The notes under the pieces were generated by a model that was given only the letters and a program-made list of their open reading frames with translations, made no database searches and was not told the DNA's origin. This document shows positions 519 through 23,838 of a stretch of DNA of 25,314 nt, in pieces; the first letter of the stretch is position 1; every line of letters begins with the position of its first letter. The position numbers and the translations under genes are program-made. Origin of the DNA: a virus; IMG/VR virus record IMGVR_UViG_3300022745_000135, positions 1 to 25,314 of that record. One strand, 5' to 3'.

Positions 519-524
519 GGTGAT

Positions 525-561
525 TTAACCGCAGAGAACGCATAGAACACAGAGAAAATTT
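525..561 (+). repeat. Border repeat (CAGAG family), forward copy
   Basis: TTAACCGCAGAGAACGCATA and onward, ending in GAGAAAATTT directly before ATG 562. Confidence 0.85.
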
Positions 562-802: not shown

Positions 803-1015
803 ATGCCCGCCACCGAAACTAATTTAAGCGAGGTCGCGCAGAAGGCGCTGGATCTCATGGCAGCGAACGAGATGCACGCGGCGTATCTGCACTTGCGCGC
901 CGAGGGCGAAGCCTGCGGCAACGCCGAGTTGCTTCGCATCGCCAACATGATTTTACCCTGCCAGATGCACACGCAAGCGATGATCGCGCTGACGCGGTTG
1001 CAGCAGGGGATTTAA
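803..1015 (+). CDS. Hypothetical helical protein, 70 residues
   Basis: Start taken at ATG 803 rather than an upstream in-frame ATG at 668, because the longer form would read through the neighbouring membrane-protein gene and a repeat. The protein (MPATETNLSEVAQKALDLMA...) is almost wholly helical and alanine-rich, with two Cys residues and no recognisable motif. Its TAA stop is formed by the following border repeat. Function unknown. Confidence 0.55.
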   Translation: MPATETNLSEVAQKALDLMAANEMHAAYLHLRAEGEACGNAELLRIANMILPCQMHTQAMIALTRLQQGI

Positions 1016-1045
1016 CCACGGAGACACAGAGACACGGAGAAAAAA
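1012..1045 (+). repeat. Border repeat, forward, ACGGAGACACAGAG variant
   Basis: TTTAACCACGGAGACACAGA and onward; supplies the stop codon of the 803-1015 gene. It pairs with an inverted copy at 1068-1097, with only about 22 bases between them. Confidence 0.8.
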
Positions 1046-1067
1046 CATAATTGATCTCAGAATTTTG

Positions 1068-1097
1068 AACTTTGTGCCTTTGTGACTCTGTGGTGAA
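1068..1097 (-). repeat. Border repeat, inverted copy
   Basis: Contains TTTGTGACTCTGTGGTGAA, the reverse complement of the CACAGAG variant. Together with 1012-1045 it makes an empty inverted pair in front of ATG 1104. Confidence 0.7.
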
Positions 1098-1679: not shown

Positions 1680-2003
1680 ATGACGAATTATCAGCAACTT
1701 GCCAATGAATTGAAGGACGCACTTGCCCGGTATCGTCCCGTGGCCGCCCACGATTTTAACCGTCGTTCGGCTTCGCTGCGCCGGACGGATCCGCTGGTGG
1801 CGCGCAAATACTATCTGAAATGGCGCGCCAAAAACCCGCCGCGCACGGCCGCTGGCAAACGCTGGGGGAAGGTCGGACTGAATCGCATCCTAAAAAACCT
1901 TTCCGAGTTGCTTGGCATTTCAACGTCCGCCGCGCGTGGACGGTATTATCGGAATCAGGTTCCAAAGCGGATCGTTGAACAGGCAAAGGCAAAGAACAAT
2001 TAA
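1680..2003 (+). CDS. Basic hypothetical protein, possible DNA binding, 107 residues
   Basis: A very basic protein (many R and K) with no acidic cluster. Residues about 68-95 (LNRILKNLSELLGISTSAARGRYYRN) look like a helix-turn-helix: a leucine-rich helix, the turn LLGIS, and a recognition helix TSAARGRYYRNQV. The N-terminal half has RRTDPLVARKYYLKWRAKNP. This fits a small DNA-binding or replication-control protein, but no family is recognised. It starts 15 bases after the previous gene, and its stop is in the next border repeat. Confidence 0.6.
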   Translation: MTNYQQLANELKDALARYRPVAAHDFNRRSASLRRTDPLVARKYYLKWRAKNPPRTAAGKRWGKVGLNRILKNLSELLGISTSAARGRYYRNQVPKRIVEQAKAKNN

Positions 2004-2029
2004 CCGCAGAGAACACAGAGAACGCAGAG
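2000..2029 (+). repeat. Border repeat, forward copy
   Basis: TTAACCGCAGAGAACACAGA and onward; gives TAA 2001-2003 and ends as CGCAGAG right before ATG 2030. Confidence 0.88.
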
Positions 2030-4899: not shown

Positions 4900-4906
4900 G
4901 ATTTAT

Positions 4907-4936
4907 TTAACCGCAGAGAACGCAGAGAGCACAAAG
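4907..4936 (+). repeat. Border repeat, forward, near-consensus copy
   Basis: TTAACCGCAGAGAACGCAGA then GAGCACAAAG, ending exactly at ATG 4937. Confidence 0.92.
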
Positions 4937-5176
4937 ATGAAACTTCAAAAAATCAATTTGGACACGGTTTGTTTTACGCATGGGCGGAAGGTTCATTGCG
5001 TGTTTGGTGACGCGCCGGACCGTGAAGATTCGCTGATGTATTGCAACCGGCGGCTTTCAACCAATTGGCGGCTGCGGAAAAAGAGTGACCGGCATTGCAA
5101 AGAATGCACCAAGCAACTGCGCCGCGCGGGAATGTCGTGGCAATGGTATGAGAAAGACAAGTTCAAGAAAGTTTAA
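4937..5176 (+). CDS. Small Cys/His-rich protein, possible zinc ribbon, 79 residues
   Basis: ATG 4937 touches the border repeat; an upstream in-frame ATG (4814) lies inside the previous gene and is rejected. Cys/His residues occur as CFTHGRKVHC near the N-terminus, a lone Cys in MYCNRR, and RHCKEC (C-x2-C) near residue 55. This is compatible with one or two zinc sites. The C-terminus is very basic and aromatic (MSWQWYEKDKFKKV). It could bind nucleic acid; no family is recognised. The stop lies in the next border repeat. Confidence 0.6.
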   Translation: MKLQKINLDTVCFTHGRKVHCVFGDAPDREDSLMYCNRRLSTNWRLRKKSDRHCKECTKQLRRAGMSWQWYEKDKFKKV

Positions 5177-5202
5177 CCACAGAGAACGCAGAGAGCACAA
5201 AG
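5173..5202 (+). repeat. Border repeat, forward copy
   Basis: TTAACCACAGAGAACGCAGA then GAGCACAAAG; gives TAA 5174-5176 and ends at ATG 5203. Confidence 0.9.
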
Positions 5203-6251: not shown

Positions 6252-6256
6252 TGATT

Positions 6257-6286
6257 TTACCGCAGAGAACGCAAAGAGCGCAGAGG
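6257..6286 (+). repeat. Border repeat, forward copy
   Basis: TTTACCGCAGAGAACGCAAA then GAGCGCAGAG. If the frame is extended upstream it would read FTAENAKSAEG, a typical sign of wrongly translated repeat. Confidence 0.88.
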
Positions 6287-6294
6287 GAAACATC

Positions 6295-7369: not shown

Positions 7370-7401
7370 AACCGCCTGCGTCTCCGGCTCCGGCGCGGCA
7401 G

Positions 7402-7431
7402 GCTATCAACTATCAACTCTAAACCATCAAC
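7402..7431 (+). repeat. ATCAAC-type repeat
   Basis: GCTATCAACTATCAACTCTA then AACCATCAACT, before the TTG start at 7437. Confidence 0.82.
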
Positions 7432-7436
7432 TCGCC

Positions 7437-7787
7437 TTGCACTACAACACCAAACTTGTTCTCGCCAATTGGCGGCAGTTGGGGTTGCCGGCGGCGGTGC
7501 CGGAGCACGGGTTTTGCGCGGAACGGAAATGGCGGTTCGATTTCGCGTTTCCCCAACAGCGGGTGGCGGTGGAAGTGCAGGGCGGGATTTTTGGCACGGG
7601 CCGGAAATGTCGGACGTGCGGGCAACGCAAAGCGGGTCGGCACACGCGCGGCACGGCGTTGGTGGATGAATACGAAAAGTTGCGCGCGGCGGCGATGCTC
7701 GGCTGGCGGGTGCTGCCGTGTTTGCCAAAACAGATTTATACGAAGGCACTGGCGGAGGAGATACGGGCAGCGTTGGAATTTATTTAA
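7437..7787 (+). CDS. Small PD-(D/E)XK-type endonuclease, 116 residues
   Basis: The sequence KWRFDFAFPQQRVAVEVQGG (residues 31-50) is the core of a PD-(D/E)XK nuclease. D35 and E46-V-Q48 are the metal-binding D...E-x-Q set. The later LGWRVLPCLP (88-97) matches the 'AALLGWRVLRF' strand of phage and DUF559-like nucleases. GRHTRG (67-72) is the usual following loop. Just before it lies an insertion with a C-x2-C pair (KCRTCGQ, C58 and C61). TTG 7437 is the first suitable start after the repeat; longer in-frame forms would read through the preceding gene and repeat. Its place near a cytosine methyltransferase suggests host DNA degradation, a Vsr-like role or a minimal restriction pair. Confidence 0.78.
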   Translation: MHYNTKLVLANWRQLGLPAAVPEHGFCAERKWRFDFAFPQQRVAVEVQGGIFGTGRKCRTCGQRKAGRHTRGTALVDEYEKLRAAAMLGWRVLPCLPKQIYTKALAEEIRAALEFI

Positions 7788-7815
7788 CCGCAGAGAACGC
7801 AAAGAGCACAGAGAT
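7784..7815 (+). repeat. Border repeat, forward copy
   Basis: TTAACCGCAGAGAACGCAAA then GAGCACAGAGAT; provides TAA 7785-7787 of the nuclease. Confidence 0.9.
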
Positions 7816-7850
7816 TGACCGGAAACCTTTTGTGAACACGCGGGGCAGAG

Positions 7851-7885
7851 CTATCAACCATCAACTTTTAACTATCAACTGACCA
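7851..7885 (+). repeat. ATCAAC-type repeat, forward copy
   Basis: CTATCAACCATCAACTTTTA then ACTATCAACTGACCA, directly before ATG 7886. Almost the same as the unit at 4203-4245. Confidence 0.85.
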
Positions 7886-8353: not shown

Positions 8354-8381
8354 GCGGAAGCGACACCGCCAAAAAAACACC

Positions 8382-8837
8382 ATGAAACAATGTTTTAAAT
8401 GCAAAGACACAAAGCCGTTGAGTGAGTTTTATGCTCACTCAAGAATGGCAGATGGTCATGTGAACAAATGCAAAGAATGCAACAAGATTGACGTTGTAAA
8501 AAACAGGCTAAAGAAACTCGAATACTATCACAACTATGACCGAAACCGCGCCAAACTAACACCAAGAAAAATCAGCGCCAGCAAGCGCAACTTTTGGTCA
8601 AAAATAGTTTCTCCTGATAAATACAAAGCTAGGATAAAAATTGGAAACGCCGTCCGGCGCGGCAAAATCAAGAGACTTCCGTGCGAAAATTGCGGCAATG
8701 AAAACACTGAAGCTCACCACACTGATTACTCTAAACCTTTGGAAGTTCGTTGGCTCTGCCCGAAATGTCATCATGCCGAACATAGGAAATATGATTACAA
8801 TAATTTGCCGGAAATAAAATCCAAGTTAGGTGGCTAA
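8382..8837 (+). CDS. HNH-type zinc protein, 151 residues
   Basis: The N-terminal zinc site CFKC...NKCKEC uses C4, C7, C30 and C33 in the 'F-x-C-K-x-x-K-x-x-x-x-F' style common in phage HNH proteins. The C-terminal site has CENC (C101, C104), EAHHTDYSKPLEVRWLC (110-126) and PKCHHAEH (127-134). The HH and DYSKP motif with a following C-x2-C-H matches HNH-like nuclease relatives of phages. The gene is lysine-rich and clearly more AT-rich than ssb and the following gene, so it is probably a later arrival. Its stop overlaps the GTG start of the next gene by 8 bases. It may be a homing-type or packaging-associated nuclease. Confidence 0.72.
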   Translation: MKQCFKCKDTKPLSEFYAHSRMADGHVNKCKECNKIDVVKNRLKKLEYYHNYDRNRAKLTPRKISASKRNFWSKIVSPDKYKARIKIGNAVRRGKIKRLPCENCGNENTEAHHTDYSKPLEVRWLCPKCHHAEHRKYDYNNLPEIKSKLGG

Positions 8838-9972
8838 GAACAAAAAACCGGAAGCAACTTGGTTGCGCGACATCGAGGCGATTGCTGCCGCGATGGGGTT
8901 GCGGCTTTATGATCAGCGCCCGAAACGGTTGGCGCAGTTAGCGGCGTTGCGGGCATTGACGGAAGCGGCGAGGTTTCCGGCGAAGGATAAGGCGAAGGGG
9001 TATTGGCCGCGCGAGGCGGTGGGTGCGTGGTTGGCGGAGCGGGTGGAGGTGGCGAAAGGGAAGCGGGAATTTACGGTGAAGTCAGAAATTAGAAGCCAGG
9101 AGTCAGGAGCAAAAAAAGCCAAGCTCACGGATTCGGAGGCGCAGCGGAAAGCGGTGAGTCAGGAGCCAGAATTACCCGCGCAGCCCAACGCGCCGGGGGA
9201 ATTGAATTTAGAATTGATGCCGGAAGACATTGCGGCGCAAAAAAAACGGCGGTTGGATTATTTGCAGGATATTTACCTGAATCCCGGCCAAAGACTTTCG
9301 CCGTCGGGTGGTAGTTTTTTAAGGTTGTCGGCTCGGGAGGAGGATGAATTACTGCGGGAGCGTCCGTGGTTAAAGGCACCAGAATCACAAGAAATCCAAG
9401 CGGAGAATGGCAATGAGAATATCGGGTCCAGCCTGCAATCGGTGGCCAATTGGATCCGCAACAATTTTCCCGGCACGGTCTGCAATAAGGTGGACATCAG
9501 CCGATGGTTGCACGGGGAATATCTGCCGGCGGGTTGCCGTGAGAATTTTCCGCCGCCGGACGAAGGGAATCGTTACAAGGCATCGCTCACGCGCGCGTGG
9601 GTGGAGAGATACCTGGTCAAACCCGCCACCGGCCAAAACCTGCCGATGGTGGTGGATGATCGGGCGCGCAAGGAAAAGGCGGATGCGGACGTGGCGGAGA
9701 TGGAAGCAGAGGAGTTGCGCCGCAGTCTAGATAAGAAATGGATTTTGCGCGAGCAAGCCTTGGCCACGGGCGTGGCGGTGGTGGCGCGTTTGCACAAGAT
9801 GGTGAAGGCCGAGGACGAGCGGAACCTACCCAAGTTGCGCCGCGAACGGTTGCTGGCGCTGGGCGTGGATGCCGCCGTGGTGGCGAAGTTCAGTGAATGG
9901 GATGTGGAGCAGGCCAAGGCACTGACGGATCGCCGTGAGGAGGCGATGGCGCAGGCGGGGAAAACTATTTAA
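8830..9972 (+). CDS. Terminase small subunit-like protein, 380 residues
   Basis: A GTG start inside the HNH gene end. It has three parts. Residues 10-75 form a first helical domain (WLRDIEAIAAAMGLRLYDQR...YWPREAVGAWLAERVEVAK), compatible with a DNA-binding domain. Residues 80-160 are a low-complexity linker. Residues about 195-260 (SLQSVANWIRNNFPGTVCNKVDISRWLHGEYLP) look like a second winged-helix unit. The C-terminal helices RKEKADADVAEMEAEELRR and WILREQALATGVAVVARL resemble Nu1-type small terminases, which recognise the packaging site and recruit the large subunit. The linker contains GGAGTCA repeats. The large terminase is 1.2 kb downstream, which supports but does not prove the call. Confidence 0.6.
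   Translation: MAKNKKPEATWLRDIEAIAAAMGLRLYDQRPKRLAQLAALRALTEAARFPAKDKAKGYWPREAVGAWLAERVEVAKGKREFTVKSEIRSQESGAKKAKLTDSEAQRKAVSQEPELPAQPNAPGELNLELMPEDIAAQKKRRLDYLQDIYLNPGQRLSPSGGSFLRLSAREEDELLRERPWLKAPESQEIQAENGNENIGSSLQSVANWIRNNFPGTVCNKVDISRWLHGEYLPAGCRENFPPPDEGNRYKASLTRAWVERYLVKPATGQNLPMVVDDRARKEKADADVAEMEAEELRRSLDKKWILREQALATGVAVVARLHKMVKAEDERNLPKLRRERLLALGVDAAVVAKFSEWDVEQAKALTDRREEAMAQAGKTI
9081..9110 (+). repeat. GGAGTCA-type repeat in the small-terminase candidate
   Basis: GTCAGAAATTAGAAGCCAGG then AGTCAGGAGC; read as SEIRSQESGA at residues 85-94. Confidence 0.75.
9154..9170 (+). repeat. Short GGAGTCA-type remnant
   Basis: GTGAGTCAGGAGCCAGA; read as VSQEPE at residues 109-114 of the same gene. 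Confidence 0.55.
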
Positions 9973-10000
9973 CCGCAGAGAACGCAGAGAGCACAAAGAA
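9969..10000 (+). repeat. Border repeat, forward copy
   Basis: TTAACCGCAGAGAACGCAGA then GAGCACAAAGAA; gives TAA 9970-9972 and stands four bases before ATG 10005. Confidence 0.92.
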
Positions 10001-10488: not shown

Positions 10489-10626
10489 ATGAGCACAATA
10501 AAAGGTAGTTGGAGCCGGGTGCAAGACACGGAGAAATTCCGCAAAGAGTCAGACCGGATTTTTAAGAAAAATTCAGCCAAGCGATATTTAACCGCAAAGA
10601 GCGCAAAGAACACAAAGAAACCATGA
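10489..10626 (+). CDS. Small basic protein with a repeat-encoded C-terminus, 45 residues
   Basis: ATG 10489 opens MSTIKGSWSRVQDTEKFRKE..., a lysine- and arginine-rich peptide. Its last third (YLTAKSAKNTKKP) is the translation of a border repeat. The stop overlaps the ATG of the next gene (ATGA at 10623). Either a genuine small protein was extended by repeat insertion or the frame is accidental. Confidence 0.35.
   Translation: MSTIKGSWSRVQDTEKFRKESDRIFKKNSAKRYLTAKSAKNTKKP
10588..10620 (+). repeat. Border repeat, forward copy (left bracket of zinc-protein copy 1)
   Basis: TTAACCGCAAAGAGCGCAAA then GAACACAAAGAAA before ATG 10623. Confidence 0.88.
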
Positions 10627-11171
10627 GTGAACTTACCGAGCGTGATTTGAATTGGTTCCGGCTGGCAAACAGCGCGGCACCAGATGGATTCTACGATTTC
10701 AAACGGCGGTTTCTCGCCCGCTTTGCCGCGCGCGATGGCTGGGATTTGCAGACGATTGAAAAATACTGTTGGACGTGCGACGGTAGCGGGGAATGCGCAA
10801 AAGGTGTTGAATGTCATTCGTGCGATGGTTCTGGCATCCATCACACCGCCGAGCATTGGCTTCAGCGGTGGAATCTCTGCGGGCAAATCTATCATGTGCC
10901 CGAATTTTGCGCTCCGCCGCATTGGCAGCGCGGGGATTCTCCGAAAAACGAAATCCACGGCCGCATCGCGCACGGCAATGTTTCTTTGTCCGCCGCCCGT
11001 CGGGCGTATCTTCGCCTGCTTCTCCGACATGAACCAATGAATTTTTATTGGGCGGTGATCAATCGGATGAAATGGCGCGGGCAGGAATTCAAAGCCAAGT
11101 GGCATTGGCGATTATTGAAGCTGCGAAACAAGATGGATTTATTTCCTGTGGTGGACGAAATCCCTTTTTGA
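10623..11171 (+). CDS. DnaJ-type zinc-finger protein, copy 1, 182 residues
   Basis: Two C-x-x-C-x-G-x-G knuckles, CWTCDGSG (C49, C52) and CHSCDGSG (C64, C67), form one DnaJ-like zinc centre. No J domain is present. The flanks are aromatic and basic: DLNWFRLANSAAPDGFYDFK before the knuckles and FYWAVINRMKWRGQEFKAKW near the C-terminus. A copy at 14059-14607 differs by about 32 bases (about 94% identity, counted by eye) but only four residues (S17G, Y48E, C58Y, R128Q). In both places it is bracketed by a forward border repeat on the left and an inverted one on the right. A role in capsid assembly or packaging is possible from position only. Confidence 0.75.
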   Translation: MSELTERDLNWFRLANSAAPDGFYDFKRRFLARFAARDGWDLQTIEKYCWTCDGSGECAKGVECHSCDGSGIHHTAEHWLQRWNLCGQIYHVPEFCAPPHWQRGDSPKNEIHGRIAHGNVSLSAARRAYLRLLLRHEPMNFYWAVINRMKWRGQEFKAKWHWRLLKLRNKMDLFPVVDEIPF

Positions 11172-11176
11172 ATTTT

Positions 11177-11203
11177 GAGCTCTTTGCGTTCTCTGCGGTT
11201 AAA
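11177..11203 (-). repeat. Border repeat, inverted copy (right bracket of zinc-protein copy 1)
   Basis: AGCTCTTTGCGTTCTCTGCG then GTTAA, ending just before ATG 11206 of the large terminase. Confidence 0.88.
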
Positions 11204-11205
11204 TC

Positions 11206-13398
11206 ATGTCCACTACCCAAACCATTGAACCTGTGTTGCCGGATGAATCTCTGATCGCGGAGATTTTTGCGGCGCAGGGGAAATCGTTTCGTGGTGGGGC
11301 GGTGGAGAACCTCGGCGGCGCGCCGATGGGCAAGGGGCACGGGAACGATGGGCAGCCGTTCGACATCGAGACGGCGTGTTATCTGAAACCAATCTTTGCG
11401 GAGTATGACAAGGCGCGGGCGAATGGCACGCGGCTGAAGCTGGTGCTCAAGGCCGGCGTCAAGACGATGAAAAGTTTTGCGCTGGAAGTCTGCGCGGCGG
11501 AGCACGTTTGCAATGGGTCGGGCGATGTGGCGTTGTATTTCGGCACGGAAAGCGCCGCCGAGAGCACGGCGACCACGCGCATCCTGAATTTTTACAAGGG
11601 CGATGATCAATTCGGCGGCGGCATCCCGCGTTTCCGCGAGAAGATGCAAACGATGCGGAGTCGGTTTGATGAGACAAATGGCGCGCTGAAGTTTCCTGAT
11701 AAGACGTTGTTTATACTGTCCGCCAACCTCGGCAACACGCAGCAGAAAAATCTGGCGTTCGTGGGGTTAGAAGATGGGTTTGTCACCGAGAAAAACGGGA
11801 TGATTAACGAAATGATTGCCCGCACCACGCAGTATCAGAAAGAGGCCATCATCTTTCTGGAAAGCCAGGGCGGGGAGAAGGAATTCGATTTTGATGACCA
11901 GTTTAAGGACACCGACCAACGGGAATTGCACGTCAATTGCCCGTGCTGCGGCAAGCAACACATTTTCAACTGGAAAGCCTACGATAAAGAGTGGATGACG
12001 CGGCCGGAGGATTTCGTTGCCACCGTGCCGGTGTCCGAAGTGGATAGGATAAAGTTGATGGTTGATAGCCAATACCCGTTGGCATCCGAAGCGGAAAAAC
12101 AATCAACGATCAGTCAGGAACTATCAACGCTTCAAAAAGAACTTTCCGAAAAACTCAAAGGCAAGATTGCGGGGTTTCGGCGCGGGGCGGATGAGTTGAT
12201 TAAGCTGCCGAATGGCGCTTACAACGAGGCGGCGGTGTTGCGCGAGACGCATTTTGAGTGTTTCCATTGCGGCGGCATCTGGCGCGATGACGGGGAGTTC
12301 GGGCCGACGCGCATTGCCTTGGATCAATCCGCCGGCAATCCGGAGAATCATGTGCCGCTGCGGCCGGATGCGTTGCAGGGGAACGTGGGATTCAACATCC
12401 CGCAATGGATTAATCGGCGTATTCCTTGGGGTGAGTTGATGCTGGAAAAGCTAAAGGCGGACCGCACGGCCAACGAGTTGGGGAATTTTGCTCCACTAAA
12501 GCAATGGTGGCAAAAGAAAGCGGCGCGGACGTGGGATGAAAACATTTCCGCCAAAGCCCCGGAAAAAATCGGCGCCACGCTCTACGAGATTGATCCGGCC
12601 AAGAAAGTGCCGGGCGAAAAGGTCCGCATCTCGGGCACGGACATCCAGTTCAACCTCACGCACATGATTTATCAGGCGTGGTCCATCTGCGAACGTCCGC
12701 GCTTGTTGGATTACAAGTGGATCAAGCCGGCCACGGCGGGTTTGAGCGACCAGGATGCGCGGGAGTTCTGTAAAGCGCGCGTGCGGGAGCTGGATAAACT
12801 TTACGGCATCGAACCACAGAACAGCATGAAAGATTGCGGGCATCGTCCTGATCTCATGCGGGAATGGGCGGCGGAAGATGCCATTCTCGTGCCCGTGCCG
12901 GATTACATGGGGCGCAAGATGATGAAGTGGATTTCCTACGGCTTGCTCATCGGCGACGACAAGGCGGGTTACAAATGGGCGAATCCCGGTCGCGCCGCCA
13001 CCATCGCGCGTTACAAACAATACGAATGGACGCAGGTGGATGCCGTGAAGGATGGCCGCCGCGTGAAAGTGCCGGTGCATCATCGGTTGTGGAGTAACCC
13101 GAGCATCAAAGAAATCGCCGTGCGCTGGCGGGATGGCGATTCCGCGCCGAAGATCGAGGTGCACGAGAAATTTCTGCAATTGCCGCCCGGTGCTACCGAG
13201 GCGATGAAGAAAGAAAGTTTCATGGCGCAGATGACGAGCGAGCGGTTGTTGCCGTGGCGGGGGCGTCCGGGCAAGTTCCGGTGGGATAACGAAGGTCGCC
13301 CGAACCATGCGTGGGATGGGTTTTGCATGGTCATCGTGCGGATGGATGAGCTGGGGATGTTGAACCACTTTGACGCGCCGGCGGATGACTCGGAGTGA
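11206..13398 (+). CDS. Phage terminase large subunit (GpA type), 730 residues
   Basis: The motor and nuclease that packages DNA into the prohead. The ATPase part has a variant Walker A, LKAGVKTMKS (residues 81-90), then YFGTESAAES and FVGLEDGF. Two zinc knuckles typical of GpA terminases follow: CPCC (245-248) in NCPCCGKQHIFNWKAYD, and CFHC (352-355) in FECFHCGGIW. The C-terminal part holds the nuclease region (GHRPDLMREWAAED, then VPVPDYMGRKM...) and ends with GRPNHAWDGFCMVIVRM, as in the family. Length fits GpA (about 640-700) with an insertion. That insertion (about residues 280-310, between the zinc knuckles) contains ATCAAC and GTCAG repeat sequence in both orientations. Confidence 0.9.
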   Translation: MSTTQTIEPVLPDESLIAEIFAAQGKSFRGGAVENLGGAPMGKGHGNDGQPFDIETACYLKPIFAEYDKARANGTRLKLVLKAGVKTMKSFALEVCAAEHVCNGSGDVALYFGTESAAESTATTRILNFYKGDDQFGGGIPRFREKMQTMRSRFDETNGALKFPDKTLFILSANLGNTQQKNLAFVGLEDGFVTEKNGMINEMIARTTQYQKEAIIFLESQGGEKEFDFDDQFKDTDQRELHVNCPCCGKQHIFNWKAYDKEWMTRPEDFVATVPVSEVDRIKLMVDSQYPLASEAEKQSTISQELSTLQKELSEKLKGKIAGFRRGADELIKLPNGAYNEAAVLRETHFECFHCGGIWRDDGEFGPTRIALDQSAGNPENHVPLRPDALQGNVGFNIPQWINRRIPWGELMLEKLKADRTANELGNFAPLKQWWQKKAARTWDENISAKAPEKIGATLYEIDPAKKVPGEKVRISGTDIQFNLTHMIYQAWSICERPRLLDYKWIKPATAGLSDQDAREFCKARVRELDKLYGIEPQNSMKDCGHRPDLMREWAAEDAILVPVPDYMGRKMMKWISYGLLIGDDKAGYKWANPGRAATIARYKQYEWTQVDAVKDGRRVKVPVHHRLWSNPSIKEIAVRWRDGDSAPKIEVHEKFLQLPPGATEAMKKESFMAQMTSERLLPWRGRPGKFRWDNEGRPNHAWDGFCMVIVRMDELGMLNHFDAPADDSE
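12053..12129 (+). repeat. ATCAAC-type repeats inside the large terminase gene
   Basis: AGTTGATGGTTGATAG (inverted unit, 12053-12068) and, about 30 bases on, AATCAACGATCAGTCAGGAA then CTATCAACG (forward unit). Read as KLMVDSQY and STISQELST in the protein. Confidence 0.7.
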
Positions 13399-13412
13399 TT
13401 GGCGAACACGAT

Positions 13413-13451
13413 TTAACCGCAGAGAACGCAGAGAACGCAGAGAACATAAAG
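13413..13451 (+). repeat. Border repeat, forward, with an extra GAACGCAGA unit
   Basis: TTAACCGCAGAGAACGCAGA, then a second GAACGCAGA unit, then ACATAAAG, ending exactly at ATG 13452. Confidence 0.92.
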
Positions 13452-13550
13452 ATGAAAATTTTTATTGAGCTTTTTAAAGCAGATCCGTGGTGGTGTTTAT
13501 ATGTAATTTCCGTTTCGGTTGGTTGCGTTGGTGCTTACTTGTATTTTTGA
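13452..13550 (+). CDS. Single-pass membrane micro-protein, 32 residues
   Basis: MKIFIELFKADPWWCLYVIS and a hydrophobic run to the end (WWCLYVISVSVGCVGAYLYF, residues 13-32). It begins at the end of a forward border repeat, and its stop codon touches an inverted repeat, so the gene fills a repeat bracket. More AT-rich than its neighbours. No family is recognised. Confidence 0.45.
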   Translation: MKIFIELFKADPWWCLYVISVSVGCVGAYLYF

Positions 13551-13574
13551 GTTCTTTGCGTTCTCTGCGGTTAA
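13550..13574 (-). repeat. Border repeat, inverted copy
   Basis: AGTTCTTTGCGTTCTCTGCG then GTTAA, three bases before ATG 13578. Confidence 0.88.
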
Positions 13575-13577
13575 TCC

Positions 13578-13790
13578 ATGAGCAACATCCAACCCATTCC
13601 CGGTGAACCGACGCGGTGGATTGTGCCGAGCCGGACGCGGAAACAATATGCGTTCATCGTGGATTCGGATTACCACGGGCGCTGGGCGTGCGGGTGCGAG
13701 CATTATTTGGTGCGCGAGCAAGAGTGCGGGCATATCCGCATGGTTAAAAATTTAACGCAGAGACGCAAAGGAACAGAGGCGCAAATATGA
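13578..13790 (+). CDS. SWIM-type zinc-finger protein, 70 residues
   Basis: RWACGCEHYLVREQECGHIR gives C38-x-C40-x9-C50-x-H52, the C-x-C-x(n)-C-x-H signature of the SWIM zinc finger, which is involved in DNA or protein contacts. Before it, IPGEPTRWIVPSRTRKQYAF and IVDSDYHG form the usual strand pair. The last 12 residues (LTQRRKGTEAQI) are the translation of a border repeat, so the C-terminus is repeat-derived. Its stop overlaps the next ATG (ATGA). Small stand-alone SWIM proteins of this kind exist in phages; the role is unknown. Confidence 0.68.
   Translation: MSNIQPIPGEPTRWIVPSRTRKQYAFIVDSDYHGRWACGCEHYLVREQECGHIRMVKNLTQRRKGTEAQI
13752..13785 (+). repeat. Border repeat, forward, inside the end of the SWIM gene
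   Basis: TTAACGCAGAGACGCAAAGG then AACAGAGGCGCAAA, ending just before ATG 13787. Confidence 0.8.
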
Positions 13791-14032
13791 ATCCAACAAT
13801 CATACAACGCGGGCACCCCATCCTCATTGGTGTGAAGCCAGAGTGGGCCGCCGCACCGATTACCAATCTTCCGCCGGACACGGTGAAAGTGCGCCGCCGG
13901 TTCCGCCGCAATAGTTTTGGTAAAGCGTTTGTGAAAACCAGCACCGGAATTCAGGAATGGGTTTTGTTAGCGGATGGCGACGACGGTTTGCGCCTTGGAG
14001 TCCTGCGCGGGGTGAATGCGCGGCAGATTTAA
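13787..14032 (+). CDS. Hypothetical protein, 81 residues
   Basis: Coupled to the SWIM gene by a 4-base ATGA overlap. It is basic in the middle (VKVRRRFRRNSFGKAFVK, residues 33-50), flanked by ILIGVKPEWAAAPITNLPPD before and a beta-rich end EWVLLADGDDGLRLGVLRG after. This suggests a small barrel that might bind nucleic acid or a head component. No family is recognised. The TAA stop is in the following border repeat. Confidence 0.6.
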   Translation: MNPTIIQRGHPILIGVKPEWAAAPITNLPPDTVKVRRRFRRNSFGKAFVKTSTGIQEWVLLADGDDGLRLGVLRGVNARQI

Positions 14033-14057
14033 CCACGGAGACACAGAGGCACAGAGA
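14029..14057 (+). repeat. Border repeat, forward, ACGGAGACACAGAGGC variant (left bracket of copy 2)
   Basis: TTTAACCACGGAGACACAGA then GGCACAGAG; gives TAA 14030-14032. Confidence 0.88.
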
Positions 14058-14058
14058 T

Positions 14059-14607
14059 ATGAGCGAACTTACCGAGCGTGATTTGAATTGGTTCCGGCTG
14101 GCAAACGGCGCGGCGCCGGATGGTTTTTACGATTTCAAACGTCGGTTTCTCGCCCGCTTTGCCGCGCGCGATGGCTGGGATTTGCAGACGATTGAAAAAG
14201 AATGTTGGACCTGCGACGGTAGCGGGGAATACGCCAAGGGTGTTGAATGTCATTCGTGCGATGGTTCTGGCATCCATCACACCGCCGAGCATTGGCTTCA
14301 ACGATGGAATCTTTGCGGGCAAATCTATCATGTGCCCGAATTTTGCGCTCCGCCGCATTGGCAGCGCGGGGATTCTCCGAAAAACGAAATCCACGGTCGC
14401 ATCGCGCACGGCAATGTTTCTTTGTCCGCCGCCCAGCGGGCGTATCTTCGCCTGCTTCTCCGACATGAACCAATGAATTTTTATTGGGCGGTGATCAACC
14501 GGATGAAATGGCGCGGACAGGAATTCAAAGCCAAGTGGCATTGGCGGTTGCTGAAGCTGCGCAACAAGATGGATTTGTTTCCCGTTGTGGATGAAATTCC
14601 GTTCTGA
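14059..14607 (+). CDS. DnaJ-type zinc-finger protein, copy 2, 182 residues
   Basis: Same length as the 10623-11171 gene and nearly the same protein. CWTCDGSG and CHSCDGSG are both kept; only residues 17, 48, 58 and 128 differ. ATG 14059 is chosen because it matches copy 1 and follows the border repeat; a longer form from 13957 would read through the previous gene. Most of the roughly 32 base differences are silent third positions, which means both proteins have been under selection since they split. Flanking DNA outside the gene differs between copies, including a different variant of the border repeat, so the duplicated unit is essentially the gene itself. Confidence 0.75.
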   Translation: MSELTERDLNWFRLANGAAPDGFYDFKRRFLARFAARDGWDLQTIEKECWTCDGSGEYAKGVECHSCDGSGIHHTAEHWLQRWNLCGQIYHVPEFCAPPHWQRGDSPKNEIHGRIAHGNVSLSAAQRAYLRLLLRHEPMNFYWAVINRMKWRGQEFKAKWHWRLLKLRNKMDLFPVVDEIPF

Positions 14608-14634
14608 CTCCGTGCCTCTGTGCCTCTGTGGTTC
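14608..14634 (-). repeat. Border repeat, inverted CTCCGTGCCTCTGTG variant (right bracket of copy 2)
   Basis: CTCCGTGCCTCTGTGCCTCT then GTGGTTC, between TGA 14607 and ATG 14638. It is the same variant family as its left partner. Confidence 0.88.
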
Positions 14635-14637
14635 ATC

Positions 14638-14928
14638 ATGCAACCCGTTTTAAAAGGTTATGCGGAGATTCCATCCATGCCGGCGGCGGTGGGGCGGATT
14701 CAGATTTGGGATGAGGATGGGCAATCCAGTGGCGCGGCGCATCTGATCGTGAATCTCGTGAGCGGGTTTCAATGTATCTGCGATGAGTGGATGAAGGATT
14801 TGCGCGCGGGCCAGCGGGTAACGTTGGACGGCGTGGACTGGCAGTTGCGGCTGTTTGAACAATTCCCCAGCCCGCATCCGCGCAGCCAATGGCCGTTCTG
14901 GTGTATCAAGTTGGAGCTAGAGAAGTGA
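14638..14928 (+). CDS. Hypothetical protein, possible small beta-barrel, 96 residues
   Basis: ATG 14638 directly follows the inverted border repeat. The sequence alternates strands and turns: GRIQIWDEDGQSSGAAHLIV (about residues 19-38), NLVSGFQCICDEWMKDLRAG and QRVTLDGVDWQLRLFEQFPS, ending FWCIKLELEK. The pattern fits a small barrel domain. It contains three Cys residues without clear zinc spacing. No family is recognised. Confidence 0.6.
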   Translation: MQPVLKGYAEIPSMPAAVGRIQIWDEDGQSSGAAHLIVNLVSGFQCICDEWMKDLRAGQRVTLDGVDWQLRLFEQFPSPHPRSQWPFWCIKLELEK

Positions 14929-14935
14929 CTAAATG

Positions 14936-14961
14936 AACCACAGAGGCACAGAGGCACAGAG
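14936..14961 (+). repeat. Border repeat, forward, CACAGAGGCACAGAGG variant
   Basis: AACCACAGAGGCACAGAGGC then ACAGAG, ending at ATG 14962. Confidence 0.88.
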
Positions 14962-15318
14962 ATGAAAATTGACAAAACCACAATGGAGATTATCCGCGAG
15001 ATGGAAGCGCAATTGCAATCGTTCCACGGAATGCGGCATCTGTGGGCGGAGTTGGTGGCCAATCGTGAGCCGTGTGGATTAACCAAAGAAAAATTGGAGG
15101 AGCAACAAGCCGCTCGCCTCACCGCTGCGCTTGGGCAGGCTTACACGCTAGCAACCATGCATGGCATTCAATGGGTTGGATGCTCAAAAGAACGCGACTT
15201 CATAAAAGAGTTTGCCGATGAGCCATGCCAATACGGCGACAACTGCCCCGACCACGGCACAAAGCATTACCGATGCGTGCCATGCAAAGCACGGCTTGCG
15301 TTGAAGATTTTTGATTAG
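14962..15318 (+). CDS. Hypothetical protein with a C-terminal zinc-binding motif, 118 residues
   Basis: The first 75 residues are helical (TTMEIIREMEAQLQSFHG, then LTKEKLEEQQAARLTAAL). The C-terminal part has CQYGDNCPDH and HYRCVPC (about residues 89-112), a likely Cys/His zinc knuckle. The gene begins at the end of a forward border repeat and ends at an inverted one, filling a bracket. A DNA-binding or assembly role is possible but unproved. No family is recognised. Confidence 0.6.
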   Translation: MKIDKTTMEIIREMEAQLQSFHGMRHLWAELVANREPCGLTKEKLEEQQAARLTAALGQAYTLATMHGIQWVGCSKERDFIKEFADEPCQYGDNCPDHGTKHYRCVPCKARLALKIFD

Positions 15319-15349
15319 CCTTTGCGCTCTTTGCGTTCTCTGCGGTTAA
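15319..15349 (-). repeat. Border repeat, inverted copy
   Basis: CCTTTGCGCTCTTTGCGTTC then TCTGCGGTTAA, starting right after the TAG of the previous gene. Confidence 0.92.
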
Positions 15350-15382
15350 GTATCGCCCCAAGTTTGACTCTCATGGATTGCG

Positions 15383-15970
15383 ATGGCTACCGCTCCACTC
15401 CCGACGCGCGAACCGGAACAATTTGTTGCCGGTGACACGCTGCTGCTGAATCGCAATCTGCCGGATTACCTGCCGTCGGATGGCTGGGTGTATCGGTTGA
15501 CTGTCACGCAGCCATTGCCCAACGGTTCGCAAGTCGTGGCGCAGGTGGATGGCACGGCGGACGGCAATTTGCACACGTTCAACGTGGTCAACTGGCTTTC
15601 GGCGCAGGCGGATGGCATTTACATCCTCACCGGCAGCGTGGTGAAAGCCAGCGGCGAGCGGCATCAGGTCTATCACAACGATGCGTTCATCGTCAGCACG
15701 AGCGATGCGGCGGGCGCGGCTTCGGTGAACATCAAGACCGAGGCGCAACAGATGTTGGAGATCATCCTGGACACGCTGAAGGAACTCTACAAACGCAAAT
15801 ACACCGAGACGGATGTGCAGCGCAATAAGTTCGTGCTCCAAAAATCGTCCGAGGCGCTGGCGGATTACAAATTCTGGTTTGCCAAACGGCAGCAGGAAAT
15901 CCAGCAACAGAATGTGCGCAACGGTCGTTCCTCCGGCGCGGTGCAGGAACCCATTTTCCGAATCTTTTAG
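15383..15970 (+). CDS. Head protein in the gpW position, 195 residues
   Basis: Sits directly upstream of the portal gene with a 3-base gap. The N-terminal half is beta-rich (EQFVAGDTLLLNRNLPDYLP, then GWVYRLTVTQ, GIYILTGSV). The C-terminal half is two helices, AQQMLEIILDTLKELYKRKY (about 132-151) and LADYKFWFAKRQQEIQQQN, followed by SSGAVQEPIFRIF. The C-terminal helical hairpin is like the small gpW-type or 'pre-portal' proteins found between terminase and portal in lambda-like phages, but with an added N-terminal domain. Likely a virion or connector component; the exact role is inferred only from position and helices. Confidence 0.55.
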   Translation: MATAPLPTREPEQFVAGDTLLLNRNLPDYLPSDGWVYRLTVTQPLPNGSQVVAQVDGTADGNLHTFNVVNWLSAQADGIYILTGSVVKASGERHQVYHNDAFIVSTSDAAGAASVNIKTEAQQMLEIILDTLKELYKRKYTETDVQRNKFVLQKSSEALADYKFWFAKRQQEIQQQNVRNGRSSGAVQEPIFRIF

Positions 15971-15973
15971 CCC

Positions 15974-17851
15974 ATGAAAATCTCTTTTGAACTGGCGCGC
16001 TCGGTTCCCGCCTCGGCCAAAAACATCACGGGCGCCTCGCTGAAATCGCCGTTCCCGCCGGAAGCCTTGCGCGTGCCGGCGCAGGCGGTGCGGGATTATC
16101 AGGAATTCCGGCATCTGGCGGAAAAGATGAATCGCTCGTTTGAAGCCGCGAGCACGGATAATTACAACTTGGATTTGCGCGGCACCTACGGCTCGGCGAA
16201 TACGGAGATCATGCCGTATCGCTACACGGTGCGGAATCGCGGCCGGACGATGACGAAAGACACCGCGCACGGGCGCGGGCTGAATCGCACTTACGCCGAT
16301 AGCGTGGTGGGCGATGATCCGTTTGAGTTGGAGATGGAGCTGGGCGATCTGGACGGCGACAACGATTTGACGGCGGAAAACAAGGTGGCCGATGCCATCG
16401 AAACCGCGTGGAAACGGTATTGCCGCAAAGGGAATTTCACCGTGCGCAAAAACATGAGCGCACTGGAAGCGTATCGCGTGATTGAAATGGCGCGGATGCA
16501 CCCCGGCAGCATCATCGTGCGCCTCTACGAAGGATTTCCGCACAACGAATTCAAGTTTGCGGTGGACTTGCTGGAAGAAGATCGGTTGCAGGAAACGTAT
16601 CAGGGACGTTCCCCGCAAGACGGTATGTTTGGCGAGGGTAATCCCATCCGCGGCAGCATCGAGTATCATCCCGAATACAATTTTCCGCTGGCGTATTGGC
16701 TGTTGCGCAAGCATCCGGGCGAATTTTTCTCACAAGGCGCGGTGTTGAGCGATGGTAAAAATTTCCGCGTGCAGATTCCGGCGTCGGAGATCATCTATTT
16801 CAACAACATGCGGACGCGGCCCGAGCAAGACAGCGGGTTCACCGAGTTGGATGCCACGATGTTGCCGCTCTGGCGCATCCATCAATATGACAAAAGCCTG
16901 ACGCTATCCAGCATCGCCAGCGCGAGCAAACCGTGGTGGATCGAGCAGAAAGAACCGACGGGCTTTACGATGCCATCCGATCCGGCGACGGTGTTCGCAC
17001 CGAACGGCGATGCGGTGCCCGGTATTTCGCCGGTGGGCGCGCTGCCATCCGATCCCGCGCAGACGCAAACGGGGCCTAACACGCCCACGAACACCATCAA
17101 ACCCGCCGCGCGCGAGATGTTGCCGCCGGGTTTCACACTGAAACAGGCCGACCCGCGTTTCCCCATCGAAGCCGCGCACGAATTCCGGTTGGACAATCTC
17201 CGCGATGTGGCGGTCGCCACGCACGGTAGCTATCAGCAGGCCACGAACGATTACCAGAATCTCGGCTTCATGGCGGCGTTGATGAGTCAACAGGCGTTCC
17301 AGCGCCACATGCGTTGCCGTCAAAAGACGTTCGCCGAGGATTTGCTGGAATGGTTTCGCGCCTGGCTGCGGGCCACCATCAATTCGGGATATTTCGACCG
17401 CCGCGGCGTGGATGTGTCCATCGAGAAACTGGACGAGTATGTGGATGCGGCGCGGTTCAAAGGCCAGCAATTTGAATTCGTGAATCCGCTCGTGCAGGCG
17501 CAATCGCTCATCCTGTTGCATCAAGCGAAACATCTCAGCCGTCAGGATGTGCAAGACGCGCTCCCGAACGGGAAGAAGATGAAAAAACTGCTCAAGCAAC
17601 TGAAGCGCGAGCAGGACGATGCGGAAACCGCCGGCGTGACGTTGGATCCCGAGCCGGAAGCGGAAGGTGCGTTGGATGCCGAGGCCAAGGCGAACGAAAA
17701 CAAGCCCAAGCCGGACCACAAAGATTCCCAACCGCCCGCAAAGGGAAAAACCGGCACGCTGAAAACGCGCAACTTGCTGCGGATGAAGCGCGGCGAGATT
17801 GATCAAACCACAATGGCGTTGATCCAGCAAAGCACCAACGGGGTTCACTGA
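15974..17851 (+). CDS. Phage portal protein, lambda family, 625 residues
   Basis: The portal forms the dodecameric ring at the unique capsid vertex through which DNA enters and to which the head-tail connector binds. Features fitting the lambda portal family are an early RTYADSVVGDDPFELEMELGD region (about residues 103-123), ENKVADAIETAWKRYCRKGN (135-154), the HPGSIIVRLYEGFP strand, then EIIYFNNMRTRPEQDSGFTE, corresponding to the family's IxHxxxxxRPGQxRG loop. A Gln/Pro-rich spacer (about 350-375) and a long acidic/lysine C-terminal tail follow. The length exceeds the usual 500-550 mainly because of that spacer and tail. The strong call rests on motif order and on position between terminase and protease. 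Confidence 0.85.
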   Translation: MKISFELARSVPASAKNITGASLKSPFPPEALRVPAQAVRDYQEFRHLAEKMNRSFEAASTDNYNLDLRGTYGSANTEIMPYRYTVRNRGRTMTKDTAHGRGLNRTYADSVVGDDPFELEMELGDLDGDNDLTAENKVADAIETAWKRYCRKGNFTVRKNMSALEAYRVIEMARMHPGSIIVRLYEGFPHNEFKFAVDLLEEDRLQETYQGRSPQDGMFGEGNPIRGSIEYHPEYNFPLAYWLLRKHPGEFFSQGAVLSDGKNFRVQIPASEIIYFNNMRTRPEQDSGFTELDATMLPLWRIHQYDKSLTLSSIASASKPWWIEQKEPTGFTMPSDPATVFAPNGDAVPGISPVGALPSDPAQTQTGPNTPTNTIKPAAREMLPPGFTLKQADPRFPIEAAHEFRLDNLRDVAVATHGSYQQATNDYQNLGFMAALMSQQAFQRHMRCRQKTFAEDLLEWFRAWLRATINSGYFDRRGVDVSIEKLDEYVDAARFKGQQFEFVNPLVQAQSLILLHQAKHLSRQDVQDALPNGKKMKKLLKQLKREQDDAETAGVTLDPEPEAEGALDAEAKANENKPKPDHKDSQPPAKGKTGTLKTRNLLRMKRGEIDQTTMALIQQSTNGVH

Positions 17852-17854
17852 TAT

Positions 17855-17884
17855 TTAACCGCAGAGAACGCAGAGAACACAAAG
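17855..17884 (+). repeat. Border repeat, forward, near-consensus copy
   Basis: TTAACCGCAGAGAACGCAGA then GAACACAAAG, ending at ATG 17885. Confidence 0.92.
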
Positions 17885-17953
17885 ATGAAAAACCGCGATA
17901 AAAAATGGAATTTGCAGACGATTGCCAGCGGCAGCTTGCCGCTCTGCGGTTAA
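17885..17953 (+). other. Short frame inside an inverted repeat bracket, 22 residues
   Basis: MKNRDKKWNLQTIASGSLPL followed by CG and a TAA that belongs to the inverted repeat half at 17941-17954. Probably not a functional gene. It shows the bracket layout: forward repeat, short frame, inverted repeat. Confidence 0.25.
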
Positions 17954-17954
17954 G
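17941..17954 (-). repeat. Border repeat, inverted partial copy
   Basis: GCTCTGCGGTTAAG, the end of the inverted repeat only; ATG 17963 follows. Confidence 0.75.
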
Positions 17955-17962
17955 TAAAGCGT

Positions 17963-18346
17963 ATGACCAATCCTTTCTCCGAGCACGCGCAGAACATGGA
18001 GGAGTATGAAAACATGCTCTCGGCACCGATTGCGGGCGTGGTGGGCAATTTTGTGAGTTGCGCGTTGTATGTCGCCGGCGGGTCCGTGCCCGAGGCGCAA
18101 TACCCGGCCACCATCGGGCAATTTGTCGTTCAACAGGTGCTCAAAGACGGCGGTTTTTCCCCGCGCCTCATGGGGCAAGCCATCCTTCGCAAGTCTATTC
18201 TGCCAGCGGGAACGTATTTCAAGACCGGCCAGAAAATCACCGCCACGCAAGCGGGCGGCTCGGTGCGCAGTTGCCAGGTGGACAGCATCGAAGACACGTT
18301 CACCGAATGGCGGTTGAACCTGTGGGATGTGAATGAGAAGGCGTGA
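17963..18346 (+). CDS. Head connector candidate, 127 residues
   Basis: Lies between portal and protease-capsid. An N-terminal helix (NPFSEHAQNMEEYENML) and a loop lead to a beta-rich domain: GVVGNFVSCALYVAGG (residues 25-40), ILPAGTYFKTGQKITATQAG, then SVRSCQVDSIEDTFTEWRLN. Size and beta content are similar to head-tail joining proteins of the lambda FII kind. There is no sequence motif that proves this. The ATG follows an inverted border repeat. Confidence 0.45.
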   Translation: MTNPFSEHAQNMEEYENMLSAPIAGVVGNFVSCALYVAGGSVPEAQYPATIGQFVVQQVLKDGGFSPRLMGQAILRKSILPAGTYFKTGQKITATQAGGSVRSCQVDSIEDTFTEWRLNLWDVNEKA

Positions 18347-18353
18347 CCTTTAT

Positions 18354-18383
18354 TTAACCGCAGAGAACGCAGAGAACACAAAG
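18354..18383 (+). repeat. Border repeat, forward, near-consensus copy
   Basis: TTAACCGCAGAGAACGCAGA then GAACACAAAG, ending at ATG 18384. Confidence 0.92.
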
Positions 18384-18530
18384 ATGGGGAAATTTAAAAA
18401 AATGCTGCGGGAATTTTGGGCAGGCATCGGCGCAACGTATCGGTTTGATACCATCAACAATTTGCCGCATCCGCCCGCCCCGCCGGTTCCTTTGCGCTCT
18501 TTGCGTTCTCTGCGGTTAAATAACGGTTGA
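18384..18530 (+). CDS. Small basic peptide with repeat-encoded end, 48 residues
   Basis: MGKFKKMLREFWAGIGATYR is an amphipathic, basic start, followed by a proline run, and the last 13 residues (PLRSLRSLRLNNG) come from an inverted border repeat. It fills a repeat bracket (18354-18520). It may be a real micro-protein that lost its own C-terminus, or chance. Confidence 0.3.
   Translation: MGKFKKMLREFWAGIGATYRFDTINNLPHPPAPPVPLRSLRSLRLNNG
18489..18520 (-). repeat. Border repeat, inverted copy
   Basis: CCTTTGCGCTCTTTGCGTTC then TCTGCGGTTAA; almost identical to 15319-15349. Confidence 0.92.
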
Positions 18531-22069: not shown

Positions 22070-22100
22070 TTTAACCGCAAAGAACGCAGAGATCACAAAG
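22070..22100 (+). repeat. Border repeat, forward copy directly after the terminator
   Basis: TTTAACCGCAAAGAACGCAG then AGATCACAAAG, ending at ATG 22101 (short frame not considered a gene). Confidence 0.88.
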
Positions 22101-22142
22101 ATGGAAAATTTCCGCTTGCCGATTTTCAGTGTTTCCGCTTTT

Positions 22143-22173
22143 CCTTTGTGCTCTTTGTGTTCTCTGCGGTTAA
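22143..22173 (-). repeat. Border repeat, inverted copy
   Basis: CCTTTGTGCTCTTTGTGTTC then TCTGCGGTTAA. It pairs with 22070-22100 with about 42 bases between them. Confidence 0.9.
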
Positions 22174-22228
22174 ACCCGTTTGACTAGGGTTAATTTACGC
22201 ATAACCGCACGAAACCAAATAAACACAC

Positions 22229-22674: not shown

Positions 22675-22676
22675 AT

Positions 22677-22706
22677 TTAACCGCAGAGAACGCAAGGATC
22701 ACAAAG
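22677..22706 (+). repeat. Border repeat, forward copy
   Basis: TTAACCGCAGAGAACGCAAG then GATCACAAAG, ending at an ATG (22707). Confidence 0.9.
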
Positions 22707-22726
22707 ATGGGAATTTCCGTTCTGCA

Positions 22727-22757
22727 TTTCTCCGTGTCTCCGTGCCTCGGTGGTTAA
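22727..22757 (-). repeat. Border repeat, inverted CTCCGTGTCTCCGTG variant
   Basis: TTTCTCCGTGTCTCCGTGCC then TCGGTGGTTAA. Pairs with 22677-22706 about 20 bases away, but the halves belong to different variants. Confidence 0.82.
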
Positions 22758-22898
22758 TTCAATCACTGTTTTGGAATCACCAGTGTGCCATACATCGGCG
22801 TGAAAAACTCATCCAGCACTCGCCACCACAATTTGCGCGCCCGCCATTGGCGCAGATGAATTCGCTTCATCCGTTTTCGGGAAAGTGGTTTTCTCATG

Positions 22899-23248: not shown

Positions 23249-23280
23249 TTTAACCGCAGAGAACACAGAGAACACAAAGA
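23249..23280 (+). repeat. Border repeat, copy oriented against the surrounding - strand genes
   Basis: TTTAACCGCAGAGAACACAG then AGAACACAAAGA. Confidence 0.9.
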
Positions 23281-23293
23281 TTAAACACGGGGG

Positions 23294-23632
23294 TTATTTT
23301 TTCCCGAGATCGGTGAACATATTTTCAAAATACTGGTGAAGCGAATGGTCTTTATCCACTTTTGCAAACCACCCATCGCCCACCTTTACGGCTTGCGGCG
23401 TGTGCAGATGCGGCGCGCTGATTTTTAACAGCGGCGCAAAAGCGATCATGTATTCAGTGAACCCGTTTAAATCAGGGGATTCTTCAACCCGCTGGCGCAC
23501 TTCAATGCCCGAATCTCGCATTTTCAACCCGAGGCTGATAATCTGCTGATGCTCGCGGCAAATATCGCCCCGCTTTTGGACGGCGGTGGCGCACAGGCGG
23601 CAATGCGGTGATTTGGTTTTCTTTTTGCTCAT
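23294..23632 (-). CDS. Hypothetical protein with an N-terminal zinc knuckle, 112 residues
   Basis: PHCRLCATAVQKRGDICREH (about residues 9-28) gives C-x2-C...C-x2-H, a likely zinc site. The remainder is helical with some strands: MRDSGIEVRQRVEESPDLNG, EYMIAFAPLLKISAPH, then VKVGDGWFAKVDKDHSLH. No family is recognised. On its own strand it starts just after a forward border repeat (23636-23668), as the + strand genes do. Confidence 0.58.
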   Translation of the reverse strand: MSKKKTKSPHCRLCATAVQKRGDICREHQQIISLGLKMRDSGIEVRQRVEESPDLNGFTEYMIAFAPLLKISAPHLHTPQAVKVGDGWFAKVDKDHSLHQYFENMFTDLGKK

Positions 23633-23635
23633 AAA

Positions 23636-23668
23636 TTTCTCTGTGTTCTCTGCGTTCTCTGCGGTTAA
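23636..23668 (-). repeat. Border repeat, forward with respect to the - strand operon
   Basis: On the - strand: TTAACCGCAGAGAACGCAGA then GAACACAGAGAA. It gives the stop of the 23665-23838 gene and leads to the ATG of the next. Confidence 0.9.
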
Positions 23669-23838
23669 ACGCGGGGCATCTTCAGTTTGATTTTGTGCGG
23701 GGTGTCAAAAGCGTTCAGCACTTCCAAAAACGCTTGCCGCTTGCCGCGCGTGTCAGGATGATCCCCAAACCGATAGCTATTGCATTCCTGCAACCACCGC
23801 CGCCGGACAAATTCCCGAACTTGTTTGGCTGATTTCAT
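23665..23838 (-). CDS. Hypothetical small basic protein, 57 residues
   Basis: MKSAKQVREFVRRRWLQECN is a basic helix, then SYRFGDHPDTRGKRQAFLEV and LNAFDTPHKIKLKMPRV. The compact open frame, its start 3 bases from a border repeat and its TAA formed by the next repeat follow the general gene layout of the window. No family is recognised. Confidence 0.55.
   Translation of the reverse strand: MKSAKQVREFVRRRWLQECNSYRFGDHPDTRGKRQAFLEVLNAFDTPHKIKLKMPRV

Follow-up and report, generated by a model that had tools for sequence, protein, structure and literature searches.

Facing repeats at the gene junctions of a virus record

The stretch of DNA analysed here (25,314 bases, hereafter the window) is a complete record of the IMG/VR virus collection. 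Its products include a DnaC-like helicase loader, a primosomal protein, a terminase, a portal and a protease-capsid protein, and a weak integrase-tail match lies at its left end. The phage host is likely to be verrucomicrobial, since contigs of Limisphaerales and other Verrucomicrobiota hold the exact phage form of the repeat described below. An Rfam search of the window returned no matches, and the bracket elements there do not lie in rRNA.

The window repeat is built of three 9-mers in tandem, TTTAACCGCAGAGAACGCAGAGAACACAAAG, and an 8-mer variant, of the type AACCACAGAGGCACAGAGGCACAGAG, also occurs; such a triplet is not palindromic. Allowing at most one mismatch, AACCGCAGAG occurs 28 times in the window versus 1.6 expected (shuffle maximum 5), and a profile search gives ~30 repeat copies in the 25 kb of the window. 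Between 10587 and 22757 the copies follow a strict + - + - order that yields eight facing pairs, or brackets, an arrangement with a chance of 1/12870 for 8 plus and 8 minus copies in random order. Copies in positions 1-10000 are mostly single, forward and in gene orientation, those without an inverted partner being at 524, 1433, 2000, 4906, 6256, 7783 and 9968. The features are collected in Table 1.

Table 1. Repeat copies, brackets and genes of the phage window
Feature	Position	Strand	Remark
Single forward copy	524..554	+	intergenic
Nearly empty bracket	1012..1097	+	8-mer type
Single forward copy	2000..2029	+	ends at ATG of gene 2030-2371
Single forward copy	4906..4936	+	intergenic
Forward copy	5172..5202	+	possible badly decayed partner 5393-5407
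Single forward copy	7783..7813	+	
Single forward copy	9968..9998	+	
Zinc-gene copy 1, left arm	10587..10618	+	three 9-mers
Zinc gene copy 1, bracketed	10623..11171	+	182 aa, CxxCxGxG-type motif
Zinc-gene copy 1, right arm	11173..11203	-	inverted
Terminase	11206-13398		
Left arm, bracket of tiny ORF 13452-13550	13412..13443	+	
Right arm, bracket of tiny ORF 13452-13550	13547..13575	-	
Zinc-gene copy 2, left arm	14028..14057	+	8-mer variant
Zinc gene copy 2, bracketed	14059..14607	+	
Zinc-gene copy 2, right arm	14608..14633	-	8-mer variant
118-aa gene bracket, left arm	14934..14962	+	8-mer variant
Bracketed 118-aa gene	14962..15318	+	no assigned function
118-aa gene bracket, right arm	15320..15350	-	9-mer variant, discordant with left
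Portal	15974-17851		
Short bracket, portal/next gene junction	17854..17953	+	22-aa ORF inside; right arm partial, 17942-17953, ~12 bp
Bracket, 127-aa gene/capsid gene junction	18353..18520	+	48-aa ORF (18384-18530)
Protease-capsid protein	18667-21315		
Nearly empty bracket	22070..22174	+	
Nearly empty bracket	22676..22757	+	arms discordant
Bracket of 112-aa ORF 23632..23294	23249..23669 (arms 23249-23280 / 23638-23669)	-	window's best-matching arms

The initial annotation had described genes enclosed by inverted copies of one short repeat that abut the gene ends. A check of the window sequence found every bracket that it listed in its place, with facing arms of three tandem 8-10-mers, and bore out the abutment: left arms end 0-8 nt upstream of the ATG, and most right arms start within 1-2 bases of the stop codon. 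The list was nevertheless incomplete, as it had overlooked the gene-holding minus-strand bracket at 23249-23669. The further claim, that both arms of a bracket tend to be the same sequence variant, was not significant within the window (permutation p = 0.19), where brackets 14934-15350 and 22676-22757 are discordant; both arms of zinc-gene copy 2 are of the rarer 8-mer variant.

Many window ORFs run into the arms at their ends (for example 18333-18530 and 22885-23160) and thereby acquire peptide tails such as LTAENAENTK or LRSLRSLRLN; similar tails in databases may flag unrecognised bracket repeats. Heptamer tandem repeats, of the type that brackets IVP genes (see below), are present at 8212-8245 (GTCAGGAGTCAGGAGTCAGG) and 24535-24559 (AGTTGATAGTTGATAGTTG), the former within the ssb reading frame, where it encodes the ssb linker. 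Several copies of the window repeat are also carried by each of the IMG/VR contigs L131, L133, L138, L140, L142 and L144, so this phage is not alone; the copies on these virus contigs are nearly all in the same orientation along the contig, with 12 of them on L131.

The two copies of the zinc gene are 94% identical (517/549 nt) and differ by 4 amino-acid changes. Both are under purifying selection, as 27 of the 32 differences fall at third codon positions. Beyond the ATG and the stop codon the two copies are no longer similar, and the arms are of different variants, which suggests either that a copy was acquired separately together with its arms or that arms were exchanged. No relatives of the zinc gene were found in IMG/VR or INPHARED, and the only one among 384 genomes (in G474) is 37% identical and lacks arms, so that the zinc gene is not inherently a bracket gene. 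A search for relatives of the 118-aa gene found none. The bracketed genes 10623-11171, 14962-15318 and 23294-23632 gave no match to PF13366 or TIGR04256, the bracketed window genes tested gave no IVP match, and no GxxExxY gene (see below) was identified in the window.

A search with the terminase gave only weak matches in cell genomes, and its sole useful relative is L009, whose terminase is 54% identical to that of the window; a search with the portal, as a hunt for moving phage cargo, found no relatives. No copies of the window repeat were found in L009. It has homologues only of unbracketed window genes (terminase, 15383-15970, portal, 17963-18346 and capsid), a comparison for which the tiny bracketed ORFs are too short to be informative. 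Because L009 lacks homologues of the bracketed genes and its terminase overlaps the next conserved gene, positions 13399-15382 of the window, which contain three brackets, are regarded as an accessory region.

GxxExxY nuclease genes between facing arms in cell genomes

A search of sequence collections with exact long repeat patterns gave no matches, and a degenerate pattern was matched. The repeat is dispersed across genomes of several phyla, also in the absence of the gene discussed below, and many of the facing pairs in cell genomes are short hairpins; numerous copies stand as lone arms. Among pairs of at most 700 bp at cell loci, convergent (facing) pairs outnumber divergent ones by 22 to 2, in a sample picked by the repeat pattern itself. 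The long brackets in three cell genomes (L048, L082, L085) all hold a gene of the GxxExxY family (PF13366/TIGR04256), small RecB-like PD-(D/E)XK nucleases of ~130 aa; the family is present in 83 of the 141 genomes that were sampled from one class. In a Microcoleaceae genome (UBA9251, L091, 5587-6378) a long facing pair surrounds a 195-aa ORF which, by eye, is not GxxExxY, and this is possibly a cargo-bearing bracket in a cell genome.

The association was tested independently of the repeat sequence by locating GxxExxY genes with the protein profile and asking whether their two flanks shared an inverted repeat of whatever sequence, with the threshold kept constant. Facing arms flank 25 of 30 GxxExxY genes in Verrucomicrobiota and 25 of 26 in Cyanobacteria, compared with 0 of 23 PIN toxin genes of the same class, 0% for shifted flanks, and 8% and 21% when arms were swapped between loci. 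When Verrucomicrobiota, Cyanobacteria, Acidobacteriota and Chloroflexota are pooled, the count is 72 of 83, with arms made mostly of 8-10 bp units in triplets, and single cases in Alphaproteobacteria and Bacteroidota fit the same picture. It does not hold everywhere: GxxExxY genes in Fusobacteria, in Treponema and on Gemmatirosa plasmids showed no clear arms. On a plasmid of Fusobacteria bacterium ZRK30 (L445, ~1486-1860), the gene lacks facing arms and is flanked by an apparent direct repeat of ~20 bp (AGATTTAATCCGTGTACCTAT), which also occurs in the region before the next gene. Across 63 GxxExxY proteins, conservation reaches 97-100% for the catalytic D, E and K and for the QxxxY motif, a pattern that fits what would be expected of an active nuclease.

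Elements with similar proteins also have similar arms (Mantel r = 0.385, a value not reached in any of 5000 permutations; for Cyanobacteria alone r = 0.705). Two GxxExxY elements that share a genome resemble each other in their arms no more than random pairs do, related GxxExxY proteins in different phyla share arms, and in G006 and G010 the dispersed copies match the arm class of the resident GxxExxY element. The arms thus belong to the element and its nuclease lineage, not to the host genome. The agreement between arms that was claimed for the phage is very strong in GxxExxY elements, with a median arm score of 24 within and 7.5 between elements. The same odd insertion sits in both arms of one element at L267 and at the G288 site in L374, which points to arms that evolve in concert, perhaps by arm-to-arm copying or hairpin repair. 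The association of GxxExxY genes with facing arms, together with this co-variation, is our firmest result, and we have not found its wider context described in the open PMC literature. There, with subscription journals outside the scope, nothing was found on the repeat sequence or on mobility of GxxExxY; the family is named in two papers, a reverse-transcriptase classification that refers to it in passing and a viral genome paper, and neither was found to deal with mobility.

Presence and absence of bracket-plus-gene units

The comparison of related genomes proposed in the initial annotation was informative for the GxxExxY units of cells, which vary in presence; for the phage it yielded, in L009, homologues of unbracketed core genes only. 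In Microcoleus, bracket-plus-gene units are present or absent between species at two sites. At one of these several species have the unit, one retains only the arms, another shows a scar and two lack it; in two species a copy with an internal deletion lies next to the unit. The other is a dnd junction, where 4 of 15 species have the unit. GxxExxY units lie at one junction beside a dnd-type gene in G282, G283, G277 and G275, which are different species, and in two cases the intergenic sequence was replaced, as if this were a preferred site. A single-arm copy is also present or absent in Microcoleus, as a stretch of ~110 bp.

In Sphingomonas parapaucimobilis, a complete unit (arm, GxxExxY, arm) separates fabD from fabG, which are directly adjacent in S. 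paeninsulae, Methylobacterium and Sinorhizobium; these empty junctions are without an arm. Gene-less remnants were found at the same sites as GxxExxY units. Together the comparisons show that in cell genomes bracket and GxxExxY gene are gained or lost as one. Target-site duplications were not seen consistently across the sites checked: there was at most TGA/TGA at one Microcoleus site and none at fabD-fabG. At several Microcoleus junctions DNA had been replaced, not simply inserted. The cargo-carrying miniature element with terminal inverted repeats which the initial annotation had envisaged is thus the right kind of object in cells, where presence and absence of the bracket with its gene can be followed for GxxExxY; it fared less well for the phage's own genes, the zinc-gene relative being unbracketed.

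Proposed mobility, its alternatives and related systems

Facing pairs round phage genes, and round GxxExxY genes in several phyla, suggest an overlooked class of small mobile elements. We consider it probable, with some reservation, that the facing pairs serve as terminal inverted repeats in one family of short mobile elements, which enclose a GxxExxY gene when complete and on which the nuclease acts in cis or in trans. A complete element would have one GxxExxY gene between arms of three tandem 8-10-mers each, with the AACC-type end outward; the left arm would extend as far as the start codon, and the right arm would set in at the stop or close to it. We infer that the nuclease moves the unit by acting on its own arms, and that it would also mobilise in trans gene-less or cargo-bearing copies, such as the hairpins and single arms of cells and the ~30 phage copies. 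The latter would have settled only at gene junctions, where insertion leaves the operon unbroken, and some would now enclose other genes, which may have been captured, may have come to lie there by recombination between arms, or may have been flanked by two arms that inserted separately. Since the bracketed phage genes tested do not match PF13366 or TIGR04256, the phage brackets are best read as gene-less or cargo-bearing derivatives, that is, as putative non-autonomous relatives of the GxxExxY element, some of them holding cargo, in an organisation like that of REPIN/RAYT.

That phage genes have moved inside their brackets is a candidate explanation, and its main rival is the independent insertion of arms at gene edges. 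According to this rival, a single arm or short hairpin is the moving unit, selection retained only copies that lie forward ahead of a start or inverted behind a stop, and the genes look bracketed although they never moved with the arms. The several lone forward copies in positions 1-10000, all in gene orientation, would follow naturally, as would the two discordant brackets with the non-significant variant test, the armless zinc-gene relative in G474 and the single-arm stretch that comes and goes in Microcoleus. We nonetheless think it unlikely, given that the eight brackets alternate strictly, that L009 is without the bracketed genes yet has the flanking core genes, that zinc-gene copy 2 has the rarer 8-mer variant on both sides, and that in cells complete GxxExxY units clearly come and go as a whole. 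Insertion of GxxExxY into pre-existing host repeats, whose sequence the arms would then be, could draw on the dispersal of the repeat without the gene, but is very improbable: elements of one genome differ like random pairs, related proteins across phyla share arms, and the empty fabD-fabG junctions have no arm. Host-derived arms were rejected on the comparison of elements within the same genome.

The arms might alternatively act as RNA-level punctuation, pairing in the transcript into a long stem round one gene that is cut by RNase III, so that the phage would process its operons in this way. As RNA duplexes the window arm pairs have computed energies of -22 to -48 kcal/mol, and IVP/S23p genes, the cargo of rRNA intervening sequences, share the bracket plan with 7-mers, the Coxiella intervening sequence being cut out by RNase III (PMC4990558). 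Such a role, which is compatible with mobility, seems improbable as the explanation of the brackets: it leaves unexplained the tie to one nuclease family and the arms that follow the protein lineage across phyla, single arms cannot make such a stem, and L009 keeps the same core gene order without arms.

More tentatively than for the family of terminal repeats itself, we propose that GxxExxY may be the core of an undescribed class of transposable elements. Its nuclease would recognise the co-evolving triplet arms, insert its own gene between the genes of an operon with no polar damage, and mobilise other DNA between arms, including phage genes, and IVP/four-helix-bundle genes with 7-mer arms would form a sister class. 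The link to triplet repeats gives a testable role to a family as common as GxxExxY, and suggests an origin for an intergenic repeat that is very widespread. Repeats at phage gene junctions round unrelated genes provide a possible route for shuffling small genes between viruses and hosts. The intervening sequences of 23S rRNA and REPIN-like systems would be joined in one architectural class.

Among known systems, integron gene cassettes also combine single genes with a recombination-related repeat, and the brackets had initially been likened to gene cassettes. Integron attC sites all have one orientation and require the integron integrase, whereas the repeats here face each other and no integron integrase was seen; an integron-like cassette was rejected on the + - alternation. 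Miniature inverted-repeat elements (MITEs) resemble the brackets as short gene-less facing terminal repeats of high copy number, presumably mobilised in trans, but here the arms are tandem triplets, and neither a known transposase family nor a consistent target-site duplication was found.

IVP/four-helix-bundle genes (PF05635; IVP/S23p), familiar as the cargo of 23S rRNA intervening sequences, are bracketed by 7-mers in 27 of 29 cases, and those outside rRNA have the same bracket plan as GxxExxY elements. The 23S rRNA intervening sequence with an S23p ORF likewise places one small ORF within inverted repeats of tandem short units, in Coxiella reportedly with three tandem heptamers before the ORF (PMC4990558). 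It differs in the protein, in its 7-mers as against 8-10-mers, and in the classical setting within rRNA, from which RNase III removes it.

The closest likeness is in organisation, to REPIN/RAYT (PMC3116915): a small gene beside short repeats, gene-less facing doublets as hairpins, single-repeat remnants, repeat classes that co-vary with the protein, and facing doublets that outnumber divergent ones, as in the cell loci here. RAYT, however, is a Y1 (HUH) transposase, whereas the gene in the cell-genome brackets encodes a PF13366 PD-(D/E)XK nuclease, and REP units are palindromic whereas each arm here is a tandem triplet. The gene-bearing GxxExxY form is, moreover, itself multi-copy and variable in presence, with copies in phage around other genes. 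By analogy, the GxxExxY system would work like REPIN/RAYT without being a member of it, because both the protein and the type of repeat differ.
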